Assembly (NCBI GenBank): GCA_021772935.1
Contig: JAJFLA010000042.1
Location: 1-64,000, forward strand
Source of the DNA: Gammaproteobacteria bacterium
GTDB taxonomy: Bacteria > Pseudomonadota > Gammaproteobacteria > Xanthomonadales > SZUA-36
Direction: 5' to 3'
Length of the DNA stretch: 64,000 bases
The notes under the pieces: generated by a model
What the model was told of the DNA's origin: nothing
The model's input: only the letters and a program-made list of their open reading frames with translations
The model's database searches: none
Shown: piece by piece, positions 26,799 through 54,707 of the stretch
Layout of the letters: each line of letters starts with the position of its first letter
How positions within the stretch are numbered: the stretch's first letter is position 1
Position numbers and translations under genes: made by a program

Positions 26799-26872
26799 TG
26801 GGCCATCCTTGGTGAATTATGCGGGTTAGCTTGACAAGCAGGTCTCGATCAATCAACCTGCTGCCTGAGTCT

Positions 26873-27078
26873 GCAGGTGTCCTTCTGACTGCTCGGTCAG
26901 AGGATTAAACGGGAAGACGGTGCGCCACTGAAGGTTAATTTCTTTAGGGTAATTCCGTCGCTGCCCCCGCAACGGTAGGCGAAGGTACGGGTCATTGCAG
27001 CCACTGTGCATCAGCATGGGAAGGCGACCTAACACTGGCGATAGTACATCGCCCTTCGCAAGCCCGGAGACCGGCCAG
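26873..27078 (+). promoter_or_regulatory. Cobalamin riboswitch (leader of btuB)
   Basis: The B12-box core is visible in order: an AACGGGAA...GGTGCG region, CCGTCGCTGCCCCCGCAACGG with the GCCCCCGCAAC box, GCCACTG, ATGGGAAGGCGACC and the closing AGCCCGGAGACCGGCC. This is the conserved AdoCbl/Cbl aptamer. A purine-rich GGGCGGAAG...CTTCCTCCGGCCC segment between the aptamer and the btuB start may be the expression platform. Cobalamin binding should shut down the downstream uptake genes. Confidence 0.93.
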
Positions 27079-27231
27079 CAGTTTTATTCACTTGTGCATT
27101 CGCGGTGGGCGGAAGTTTGTGAGAACTGCTTCCTCCGGCCCATCCGGTACCAGAAACAGCCTCCCAACTTCGATCTCCGTCAAAAAACACAAACCCTACG
27201 CGTTCGGGTGAGAACGCAGTGGAAAAAGACG

Positions 27232-51918: not shown

Positions 51919-52205
51919 GGTTGCCTGTTAAGTTCTGTTTCTCTCCAGAGGAGACCATACTGCTCATCTGTATGAGCCCGTACGCCTGACTTTAATAGTC
52001 GTCTCTGCTCACCTGATTTTATAGACTACCGCGTCAACTTGGAACACTAAAAGTAATTCACTTCCATCGCAAATCAATTCAATTACAAACGACTGTTTTC
52101 TGAATCAGTAAAACTACTGTACCCTATTAGGGCTCTTTGCTCCGAAAGGGTGGCATTGCCATCCTCATATTCATCACAATAACCTCTAAGAGGGAGAATA
52201 CAACC

Positions 52206-52877
52206 GTGGAACAAGCAATATTTAACGAAATGTTTTTGGCCTTTATATTTCGCTGGGTACATTTTTTGGCTGGCGTAACCTGGATTGGTTTGCTGTACTA
52301 CTTTAATTTCGTGCAAGGAGAATATTTTAAAGAAGCTGATGGCGGCGCTAAGTCTGATGTCATCCAGAAGCTGGTTCCACAGGCGCTTTGGTGGTTCCGC
52401 TGGGCTGCTATGTTCACCTTCTTGAGCGGAGCCTACTTACTCTACACTTTTCACCTCAGTGGTATTGGCATCCTCGTTGGCGCCACCCTGGGAACGATCA
52501 TGTTCCTTAATGTGTGGCTAATCATCTGGCCCAATCAAAAAGTCGTCATAGCCTCGGCCAAACAAGCCGCAGCCGGTGGAGCGGCTCTACCGGGTGCCGC
52601 AGCCGCCCTGGCCAAAGCAGGACTGGCCTCACGCACCAACACTTTATTTTCTATTCCTATGCTGTTCTTTATGGCCTCATCAAGACACGTGGGTCAGCTG
52701 CAAACCTCAATACACGACATTAACGTGGCGTCAATGGCCCTGATTTTTGGTCTCATTGCGGTGCTGGCACTCAATGGTGTAGTTGGGAAAACCGGACCAT
52801 TCACTTCTGTTAAAGGTGTCATTGGCAGTGGATTCTTACTGACCGCAATTATGTTTATCCTGGTTGAAATGATTTAA
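52206..52877 (+). CDS. Urate-oxidase-N-like membrane protein, 223 aa
   Basis: An integral membrane protein of about six spans matching the N-terminal domain of the PuuD-type urate hydroxylase (PF06181): FRWVHFLAGVTWIGLLYYFNFVQG, WFRWAAMFTFLSGAYLLY and WLIIWPNQKVVI. The cytochrome c domain fused to true PuuD is absent, and no purine gene is nearby, so activity on urate is doubtful. GTG 52206 is preceded by GAGGGAGA. Confidence 0.8.
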   Translation: MEQAIFNEMFLAFIFRWVHFLAGVTWIGLLYYFNFVQGEYFKEADGGAKSDVIQKLVPQALWWFRWAAMFTFLSGAYLLYTFHLSGIGILVGATLGTIMFLNVWLIIWPNQKVVIASAKQAAAGGAALPGAAAALAKAGLASRTNTLFSIPMLFFMASSRHVGQLQTSIHDINVASMALIFGLIAVLALNGVVGKTGPFTSVKGVIGSGFLLTAIMFILVEMI

Positions 52878-52905
52878 ACAGACTTTAACAAAGGTCTAGA
52901 GATCA

Positions 52906-52927
52906 GACCCGGGGTTCTCCCCGGGTC
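52906..52927 (+). terminator. Stem-loop after the urate-oxidase-like gene
   Basis: A 9-bp stem GACCCGGGG / CCCCGGGTC with loop TTCT, 28 nt after the stop. No T-run follows, so termination efficiency is uncertain. Confidence 0.5.
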
Positions 52928-52940
52928 GATATGATCAGGG

Positions 52941-52975
52941 GAAGGTGAGAGAAGGAACTGGTCGAGAGGCTGGCC
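52941..52975. repeat. Dispersed repeat, copy B
   Basis: Matches copy A at 26754-26798 over GAAGGTGAGAGAAGG and GGAACTGGTCGAGAGGCTGG, lacking about 10 nt found in copy A. Both copies are non-coding and lie ahead of RNA elements (riboswitch; structured RNA). Confidence 0.6.
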
Positions 52976-53195
52976 CGGACCACCGTAAAACTGTCAAGTC
53001 ACCGGCTTGGTTCATGAGCGGTTTGTCATTAACGTATGTTGAAAAATTTATTTGGGTCATTTTTAATCAATTATATTCGCTTCATCGCAAACCAATAAAA
53101 CACTTCATTTCAGTGTTAGTTATCTATTCAGTTACTTGTGATTTTTTACTGATATTTACGTTTAGAAAAACACCCTAAATAACCATTTTCTGGTT

Positions 53196-53224
53196 TTGAC
53201 AATCCTGTCCTTCAGGAGTAGCTT
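53196..53224 (+). promoter_or_regulatory. Promoter-like element of the structured RNA
   Basis: A perfect -35 TTGACA (53196-53201), 17-bp spacer and a weak -10 TAGCTT (53219-53224). It would start a transcript near 53231 that reaches the terminator at 53762. The weak -10 leaves the start uncertain. Confidence 0.4.
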
Positions 53225-53277
53225 AAGTACCCCGTTAGACAGAAACCCACCAACCGTAAGGTTGGGGTCGCAGGAAG

Positions 53278-53420
53278 AACGGAGAAGGTCGAAAGACTGG
53301 AAAACGTACGAAGAAAGTCGCAAGACTGGAAACGTGCGGAGAAAGTCGAAAGGCCGGAAGCGTACGGAGAAAGTCGAAAGGCCGGAAGCGTGCGGAGAAA
53401 GTTGAAAGACTGGAAACGAG
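53278..53420 (+). repeat. Five tandem 28-29-nt hairpin units
   Basis: Each unit has the form CGGAGAAAGTC-GAAA-GRCYGGAA with a short stem closed by a tetraloop. Loops are at 53291 (GAAA), 53320 (GCAA), 53348, 53376 and 53404 (GAAA). Base changes keep pairing in units 1, 2 and 5 (GGTC/GACT, AGTC/GACT, AGTT/GACT), while units 3 and 4 have AGTC/GGCC with a terminal mismatch. There are no spacers, so it is not a CRISPR array. Confidence 0.85.
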
Positions 53421-53729
53421 CAGAGTGCGAATCTACTGGAAGGCCGACCCGCCTGAAGGTAGAGAGGGTGGAAGAAAACGGACAGCGTCCAGGTGGTACA
53501 GGGCGCGTCACCCGGACCGGGTTCTGCCAAAAGAAGCGGTCGTACCATAAGGGTGACTCGATAGGAACACGCGATTCCTTGAGATAGACGCGAAACACGT
53601 CGATAAATAAAAGCGGGAAGAAGACTCGCGACCAGATACCGAAGGGCGGAACAAATCGGAGCTGGACGAAGTTGGAAAGGCCTAGGAGGATCTGCAGTCC
53701 ACCGCAAGCGGAGTTCCTACACTTCTATG

Positions 53730-53762
53730 ACGAGGGAGACGCAAGTCTCCCTCGTTTTTTTT
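53730..53762 (+). terminator. Strong rho-independent terminator
   Basis: A perfect 11-bp stem ACGAGGGAGAC / GTCTCCCTCGT with a GCAA loop and a run of eight T. It ends the candidate structured RNA and insulates the mla operon. Confidence 0.95.
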
Positions 53763-53909
53763 GTCTAAACAAAAGCAAACCAAAAACAGCCACTCGATCC
53801 CGAATTCGTACTACAATTGCACCCAGGTGAATTGAAATAGAACCATGCACTTCACGGTCAGTACCACTAAGCAACTATTACAGGCCAGACTGGCAGCAGG
53901 AACCGCAGC

Positions 53910-54707
53910 TTGAAAGACCCGATAATTCGCATCCGCAATGTGCTTTTTAAACGAGACGAAAAAGTCGTGCTTGATGACGTAAGCATGAATATTGGTCGCG
54001 GTAAAATTGTGGCCATAATGGGCCCGAGTGGTGTAGGTAAAACAACGATTCTACGACTGATCTCCGGTCAGCTACAACCATCCAAAGGCAGCATTGAAGT
54101 TGATGGAAAACTGGTTTCAAGCTTATCCAGACGTGCATTATATGATTGTAGAAAGGACATAGGCGTGTTGTTGCAAAATGGTGCTTTATTTACCGACCTG
54201 ACAGTATTTGAGAACGTCGCCACACCGTTGAGGGAACATAGCGACCTGATAGAAAAGGACATTGAGGAGCGTGTTATGGCCAAGCTGGAATCTGTAGGGC
54301 TGGCGGGCACGGAAGAGCTGATGCCACATAGCCTGTCAGGCGGAATGGCTCGACGCGTCGCACTGGCACGGGCCGTCATCATGAATCCAAAAATCGTATT
54401 GTTCGACGAACCCATGACCGGGTTGGACCCAATTGCCATGTCCACCGTGGGCCGTCTGATACGGGAAACCAATGACCAGTTGGGTTTAACCAGTGTCATT
54501 GTTACGCACAATGTTGTGCAGATGAAAAGGCTGGTGGACTATTGCTTTATTCTGGCCGGTGAAAAGCTAATTGCTGAAGGTACTCCGGAGGAGTTAATGC
54601 AAAGTGATGAGCCTGCGGTTGACCAGTTTATGAATGGTCGGGTCGAAGGGCCTATATCTTTCAAGTACCAAAATGCGGCGAGTAGCAGCGCCACAAGTCC
54701 TTCCTGA
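53910..54707 (+). CDS. mlaF: Phospholipid transport ATPase MlaF, 265 aa
   Basis: ABC ATPase of the Mla intermembrane lipid transport system. Walker A GPSGVGKTT, Q-loop GVLLQNGALF, signature LSGGMARR, Walker B IVLFDEP and H-loop VTHN are all present. It starts at TTG 53910, with AGGA upstream; no ATG lies before the conserved IRNVLFKR. It is first of five co-directional mla genes, 3 nt before mlaE. No STAS partner MlaB follows, unlike in E. coli. Confidence 0.93.
   Translation: MKDPIIRIRNVLFKRDEKVVLDDVSMNIGRGKIVAIMGPSGVGKTTILRLISGQLQPSKGSIEVDGKLVSSLSRRALYDCRKDIGVLLQNGALFTDLTVFENVATPLREHSDLIEKDIEERVMAKLESVGLAGTEELMPHSLSGGMARRVALARAVIMNPKIVLFDEPMTGLDPIAMSTVGRLIRETNDQLGLTSVIVTHNVVQMKRLVDYCFILAGEKLIAEGTPEELMQSDEPAVDQFMNGRVEGPISFKYQNAASSSATSPS

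Follow-up and report, generated by a model that had tools for sequence, protein, structure and literature searches.

Bacterial RNA classes of more than 350 nt are few, and several of them are unexplained; raiA is a structured RNA of unknown function. OLE, from Gram-positive bacteria, is described in one account (PMC9723947) as an RNA of about 600 nt with an intricate structure and conserved stretches. A second account (PMC12286853) presents OLE as a dimer with a symmetric palindromic kissing loop, describes OLE, GOLLD and ROOL alike as homo-oligomers assembled partly by symmetric kissing loops, and reports raiA as resolved in the form of a monomer; raiA, being large yet monomeric, indicates that size alone is no predictor of assembly.

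The locus described here lies in a 64,000-nt stretch of DNA (contig JAJFLA010000042.1, positions 1 to 64,000, of the gammaproteobacterial assembly GCA_021772935.1), the whole of which is referred to below as the window. Positions 53196-53762 look like a complete non-coding RNA gene, comprising a promoter, a predicted transcript of ~530 nt and a terminator (Table 1), and this gene almost certainly defines a real and new class of RNA. The case for a real RNA is made by covariation in both halves of the core, by a structure far above that of slid versions and by compensations in the pseudoknot; that for a new class by the absence of any Rfam match at E 5, by the location of the matches at divergent loci outside the RNA and by the presence of the RNase P RNA elsewhere. 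Together with conservation in two families, these observations bear out the original prediction of a large structured RNA outside known classes.

Gene architecture and conserved core

The promoter-like pair is found at all 34 RNAs, with TTGAC in every case and a spacer of 17 bp (18 in two of them), an agreement that for the seven divergent loci is partly built in because they were located by that very pattern. In the window its -35 is the TTGACA element that had been noticed earlier. The GTAA-loop hairpin upstream of the array and the perfect 11-bp terminator of the original prediction are likewise present, the terminator arms (53730-53740/53745-53755) being 100% paired and the hairpin recurring in all 27 aligned sequences. 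Judging from the conserved promoter-like pair and the terminator, the RNA would form a transcription unit of its own, with a predicted start near 53230-53232. It is flanked on one side by an ORF (52137-52877) whose membrane-protein product matches a urate-oxidase N-terminal domain and on the other by the mla genes, beginning with mlaF. Folding of the whole stretch beats that of shuffles (z -2.23, with 3 of 100 shuffles equally good; z -1.39 for the antisense strand). A coding gene, sense or antisense, was rejected because its frames are broken by gaps, in agreement with the predicted lack of coding potential: gap runs that are not multiples of 3 account for 118 of 147 and 149 of 149 in two core alignments, leaving no conserved reading frame, and a Pfam search of two antisense ORFs recovered no match. 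The stop-free runs of 69-92 aa on the antisense strand within the ~270-nt core are attributed to the T-poor composition of the sense strand.

Table 1. Features of the RNA gene and its surroundings, in window coordinates
Feature	Position	Strand	Remarks
Conserved upstream DNA box TTCGCTTYRTCGCAA	53076..53090	+	120 bp before -35
Second conserved upstream box, ATTCAnnAACTTG-like	53125..53138	+	71 bp before -35; alignment of 26 upstream regions
Promoter	53196..53224	+	-35 TTGACA 53196-53201, 17-bp spacer, -10 TAGCTT 53219-53224
5' hairpin CCAACC-GTAA-GGTTGG	53250..53265	+	sequence; alignment of 5' regions
Five hairpin units in tandem (29, 28, 28, 28, 28 nt)	53279..53419	+	TRF, repeat search, unit analysis
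Conserved core, first half (model R1): GGCCGACCCGCC, H1, pseudoknot, H2, H4, GAGATAGACG	53437..53591	+	alignment A1, pair counts, covariance-model searches
Hairpin H1	53485..53506	+	arms 53485-53490/53501-53506; loop contains UGGUAC 53494-53499; both-side changes in 6/6 pairs
Pseudoknot	53494..53547	+	UGGUA(C) 53494-53499 with (G)UACCA 53542-53547
Helix H2	53507..53557	+	arms 53507-53513/53551-53557; 97.9% of cells paired; both-side changes in 3/7 pairs
Hairpin H4	53563..53579	+	arms 53563-53567/53575-53579; both-side changes in 4/5 pairs
Most conserved element GAGATA-GACG...CGUC-GAUAAA	53581..53607	+	other genera have their second array site at its tip
Hairpin H6	53613..53629	+	arms 53613-53617/53625-53629; 83.0% of cells paired; both-side changes in 2/5 pairs; one pair fails in 8/27
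Helix H7	53632..53665	+	arms 53632-53635/53662-53665; both-side changes in 3/4 pairs; inner helix with zero double changes, 79% of cells pairing
Hairpin H8	53685..53703	+	palindromic tip CUGCAG 53692-53697; stem 96.3% paired; both-side changes in 3/5 pairs, in just 4 cells
ACUUCUA-like conserved stretch	53721..53727	+	immediately 5' of terminator; alignment and divergent loci, by eye
Intrinsic terminator, 11-bp hairpin and U-run	53730..53762	+	repeat search; pairs covary in 27 sequences
Neighbour mlaF (ABC ATPase), then mlaE	53910..54707	+	Pfam ABC_tran; MlaE next; synteny

Downstream of the array the RNA possesses a strongly constrained core. In alignment A1 (27 sequences, 31 pairs) 98.8% of the cells pair, and changes on both sides occur in 13 pairs and 53 cells, as opposed to 6.1 and 16.7 after shuffling and to 2-4 double-changed pairs when the partner strands are slid by 1-3 columns. 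The corresponding values for alignment A3 (27 sequences, 17 pairs) are 88.9%, 8 pairs and 21 cells, with 2.9 and 5.2 in shuffled and 0-5 pairs in slid versions. The comparison of relatives, which had been suggested as a check, hence shows core stems that are conserved and covary well above shuffles. Among the predicted helices H1, H2, H4 and H7 are supported by compensating changes, and H6 and H8 more weakly so (Table 1). The five counted pairs of the pseudoknot are intact in 27 of 27 main-lineage sequences and without covariation there; in the second family its strands read GUGGUA:UGCCAC and GGUGGU:ACCACC, with pairing preserved, and on shuffling of the 3' strands the observed energy is reached by 0-30 of 200 shuffles, depending on the RNA. 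A long-range pairing of GGCC with GGCC (53442-53445 with 53679-53682) is nearly invariant, and covariation thus neither supports nor refutes it. A closing stem, P1, joining the 5' end of the transcript to the strand before H1, was plausible by eye and was set aside after a blind test that gave its own-lineage and cross-lineage scores as 13.6 and 13.4.

The GAGATA-GACG...CGUC-GAUAAA element shows a single variable column among the 19 RNAs of alignment A4, which span two families; exceptions outside those 19 are L029 and L031, which read CGTCAATAAA, and L043, L100 and L125, which read GAGATAGATG. The CUGCAG palindrome at the tip of H8 is present in 30 of 34 RNAs; L011 and L103 lack it, and L016 and L029 have an altered form. 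By chance, 1 in 64 random hexamers would be palindromic.

The conserved feature extends 5' beyond the -35 at 53196, to a DNA box matching TTCGCTTYRTCGCAA. With up to 3 mismatches allowed, this box is found in all but one of 27 main-lineage genes, the exception having only 92 upstream bases, and in the 26 it is positioned at -118 to -121 from the -35 save for one case at -110. It recurs at -21 in four divergent genes, which belong to g8 and g10, whereas a search of three genes of the second family (f5) did not find it; its rate in shuffled upstream DNA is 0.002. The exact 14-mer of the box occurs a single time in this genome, at this RNA gene. Across seven genomes there are 10 exact sites (1-3 each) and one site for a reversed control pattern; four of the 10 are at the RNA. 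The other six are not, and some of these lie close to where a long open frame begins or ends; three of the seven RNA genes have a box that deviates from the exact pattern. The box may bind a regulator. In the alignment of upstream regions, L016, L033, L035 and L036 display TGTGGATAA or TGTGGAC, sequences that we take to be DnaA-box-like, in the interval separating this box from the promoter.

Hairpin arrays at two sites

The five 28-29-nt hairpin units with GAAA or GCAA loops that had been noticed at this locus are indeed present, their loops reading GAAA, GCAA, GAAA, GAAA and GAAA in order; TRF delimits the array as 53280-53425, with a period of 28, 5.2 copies and a score of 185. Each unit is built of a 3-bp outer stem, a 5x5 purine internal loop, a 4-bp inner stem and a GNRA loop, in the phase NCG-GAGAA-RGUC-GNRA-GACY-GGAAR-CGN, with one additional A in unit 1. 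The proposal that the stems keep pairing through base changes holds over 24 units from four genomes, in which pairing is retained at 90 of 96 inner-stem positions, compared with 79.7 on shuffling the 3' halves among all 24 units (0 of 20000 shuffles being as good). It holds only in part for the window array by itself, where units 3 and 4 carry an A.C mismatch within the 4-bp stem and pairing within units is no better than that between units (0.90 vs 0.93; the three other arrays have 1.00, 1.00 and 0.92 vs 0.83, 0.83 and 0.81). Given these near-equal values in the window array, separate hairpins and a nested rod are indistinguishable there; moreover, since each unit is nearly self-complementary, neighbouring units, or two molecules, could pair together. 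The compact tertiary fold suggested by the GNRA loops receives indirect support from the conserved pseudoknot, but in L007 every second loop is not GNRA.

No other part of the RNA is as poorly conserved as the array, and relatives form a series of length variants from about 360 to 900 nt on one constant core. In 11 of 27 RNAs the 5' site is occupied by 96-98 nt containing one hairpin unit; L004 and L005 have three units there, the window five and L007 thirteen. The stretch in L007 exceeds the 98-nt form by exactly 12 x 28 nt with a mean unit identity of only 64%; all of its odd units have GNRA loops and none of the even ones, and this strict alternation among thirteen 28-nt units suggests a 56-nt super-unit. 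L003 has long hairpins with GAAA/GAAA internal loops at this site instead. In nine of the 27 RNAs the 5' site is reduced to 29 nt without a unit and a branched hairpin array of 198-557 nt, with GGAA-type internal loops, is found instead at the GACG/CGUC tip. Sixteen RNAs combine a 5' array with a tip of 5-16 nt, two have neither array and 0 of 27 have both; these counts, which cover 27 RNAs and leave aside the seven divergent ones, follow phylogeny and represent few independent events.

Relation to known families and phyletic distribution

Scanning of 52870-53930 with the covariance models of Rfam 15, the first check suggested for the locus, recovered 0 matches at E<=5 and none at the gathering score. 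The OLE family is included in this library and GOLLD and ROOL are both represented in it, so that the scan also covers these models, none of which matched the locus at E<=5. Eight Rfam matches in five divergent loci (mir-341, the rnk leader and others) were rejected, all of them lying outside the RNA and below gathering scores, as was an identity with RNase P RNA, the RF00010 match of this genome being elsewhere (G000:C52, 342 bits). A CRISPR array with 28-nt repeats was likewise discarded because the units abut without spacers. No phage or plasmid record was matched in blastn searches; viral contigs scanned by pattern yielded 0 matches and one chance match (L151), which falls inside a 383-aa ORF with the rest of the core missing, on a contig that also carries a long, presumably capsid-like, ORF. 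A literature search, with most subscription papers outside its reach, found no published description of this RNA. Across the window as a whole, a cobalamin riboswitch elsewhere (26858-27093, 110.9 bits) is the only Rfam match at the gathering score. At 729-981 the window also contains tandem repeats of 39 and 54 bases; both lengths are multiples of three, and these repeats thus perhaps lie within a gene for a repeat-containing protein.

In a blastn survey of 61 genomes (E<1e-10) the RNA was recovered from 28 of the 37 genomes that belong to this family and from 0 of 24 of other families in the order. Model R1, built from 27 sequences of the first half of the core and searched in 398 sampled genomes of the order, matched 33 genomes of the family, including the diverged g8 and g10 forms, and one genome of a second family. 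Model R2, built from 19 sequences with the diverged forms included, matched 33 of 39 sampled family genomes and three of the second family f5, besides one match judged false; the hits of both models are partly by construction because the models drew on many of the same genomes, G051, G067 and G171 being part of neither. A diverged core is present in three of four f5 genomes. Sampling of 369 genomes of the class and 398 of the phylum returned the window itself and three weak matches that were rejected on inspection, although remote relatives may be missed because the searches of more than 40 genomes used stricter filters that lose some weak matches. Inspection of G234/L142 (E 0.0014), G564/L138 and G716/L139, all of them weak, led to their dismissal as chance matches, and G833/L168 (E 0.009) is without the GAGATAGACG motif even at one mismatch.

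A DNA-pattern search recovered 30 named genome contigs, with the RNA model present in 22 and absent from eight; the 22 carriers come from uncultured MAGs that bear the labels Lysobacterales, Xanthomonadales, Oceanospirillales, Gammaproteobacteria or Proteobacteria. Six family genomes gave no strong match, three of them yielding scraps at E 0.1-0.45 and three nothing, and are 60-96% complete; the most complete of them, G012 (96%), is also without an MlaF match at E<=1e-40, and its locus may therefore be unassembled. Where a genome gave a second match, this was a contig-end overlap or a further part of the one gene, with the exception of a 22-base scrap in this genome. In G004 (L010/L023) and G006 (L006/L022) the contigs end inside the RNA gene and overlap, and the two partial copies in each are probably one gene.

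Possible functions and comparison with known RNAs

The presence of the RNA in 33 of 39 family genomes, its structural constraint and its absence from Rfam indicate that it probably does something that its hosts need. The reading favoured here is that the locus encodes a large, structured non-coding RNA of a new class, which acts in trans and serves as a scaffold; in its entirety this reading has slightly less than an even chance of being right. The predicted independent transcript, issuing from its own promoter and ending at its own terminator, would fold into a core of about eight helices and a pseudoknot, most of them backed by covariation, and this core would most likely be the working part that binds a partner. 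The length-variable arms, in which short helices alternate with symmetric purine loops (GAGAA/GGAAA, GAAA/GAAA, GGAA/GGAA), would most likely be stiff, multivalent rods, and the RNA would probably be a scaffold for a ribonucleoprotein or an RNA-only particle. A second copy may pair via the palindromic CUGCAG loop of H8, as OLE, GOLLD and ROOL do via loops of their own. The scaffold function as such is proposed tentatively, on the grounds that the arms vary from 1 to 13 units or switch site as the core stays the same and that the palindromic tip is so widely retained. Somewhat more doubtful is the fuller picture of an 'ornate' RNA, near-universal in its lineage, that self-assembles via a CUGCAG kissing loop and has its size tuned by hairpin arms at either site but never both; if true, it would be a natural modular RNA scaffold with an evolvable arm length. 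The series of length variants on a constant core makes questions about RNA scaffolds, purine-loop rods and self-assembly testable by comparison.

The genomic context bears on the alternative that the mla operon is controlled by the RNA as its cis-acting leader, a riboswitch or an attenuator. At all 27 main-lineage loci used in the alignments, and at L103, the RNA lies directly before mlaF on the same strand, as such a leader would; however, a strong terminator lies before mlaF, and the association in cis is not constant. The best MlaF match is on a different contig from the RNA in five genomes, three of them from g8 and two, G040 and G051, from f5 (the two of the three f5 carriers that the comparison covered), and no Mla match was found in the 5.5-6 kb around the RNA in G016, G026, G031 and G040. 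The best f5 match is 38-40% identical and so may be another ABC ATPase rather than a true mlaF. The separation in these five divergent genomes implies that the RNA probably acts in trans and makes a cis role for mla unlikely as its main role, leaving the leader explanation improbable and mostly refuted. Marginally less probable again is a sponge that sequesters CsrA/RsmA, which had been suggested from the many GGA triplets. RNAs of the CsrB/RsmZ type have many GGA triplets, repeated hairpins and a terminator, as does this RNA; 10 of 34 RNAs show a mild enrichment of GGA by itself (z 2.0 or more), and GGAA reaches z 5.2, with 2.8-3.1 in two second-family RNAs. The ANGGA core, however, is at shuffle expectation in all 34 (z -2.1 to +1.1), which speaks against the suggestion, GGA stays below z 2 in all seven divergent RNAs, and the GGAs of the variable arms sit in symmetric internal loops rather than in hairpin loops.

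A base-pairing regulatory sRNA of the Hfq or ProQ type and of unusual size, acting in trans through exposed stretches such as ACUUCUA with the arms as stabilisers, would account for the promoter-like pair, the U-rich terminator and the conserved ACUUCUA-like stretch adjoining it. It is nevertheless unlikely, given that the most conserved parts are helices, junctions and the pseudoknot rather than one exposed seed and that the U-runs are short in the divergent RNAs. The near-invariance of the GAGATA-GACG/CGUC-GAUAAA junction, which varies less than any other element across 19 RNAs from two families, could alternatively reflect the active site, together with the pseudoknot, of a ribozyme or RNP enzyme with the arms as peripheral domains. 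RNase P and group I RNAs similarly combine a core with variable peripheral extensions; yet there is no similarity to catalytic RNAs in Rfam and the neighbouring genes suggest no chemistry, so that this explanation is distinctly unlikely. The tandem array of variable copy number also invites the interpretation as a mobile or selfish repeat element rather than a functional RNA. In f5 the RNA (loci L107 and L140) lies between two genes that we name from their sequences as glnE and a transposase gene, the latter presumably RAYT-like (REP-associated). Against such an element stand the nature of the second matches within genomes, which but for the scrap mentioned above come from contig overlaps or from the one gene, the same neighbour in the main lineages, the strong covariation and the failure of blastn and pattern searches to find the RNA on plasmids, in phages or on any truly viral sequence; it is disfavoured to the point of being scarcely credible.

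The scaffold reading thus preferred places this RNA beside the large RNAs introduced above. Like raiA it is a structured RNA of unknown function, from which it differs in giving no match to that family in the Rfam scan of the locus. OLE has a comparable size, an intricate conserved structure and a palindromic loop; it differs in its origin from Gram-positives, in the failure of its model to match and in the hairpin arrays, which here vary at two sites. OLE is also part of a membrane-bound RNP that has partner proteins of its own; for the present RNA no partner gene of a known kind was recognised. GOLLD and ROOL are likewise large ornate RNAs with kissing loops that assemble into multimers (PMC12286853); the present RNA differs from them in giving no Rfam match and in the lack of viral or plasmid copies in blastn or pattern searches. 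The resemblance to OLE, GOLLD and ROOL is one of style, i.e. of size, an ornate core and a palindromic loop, and not of homology.
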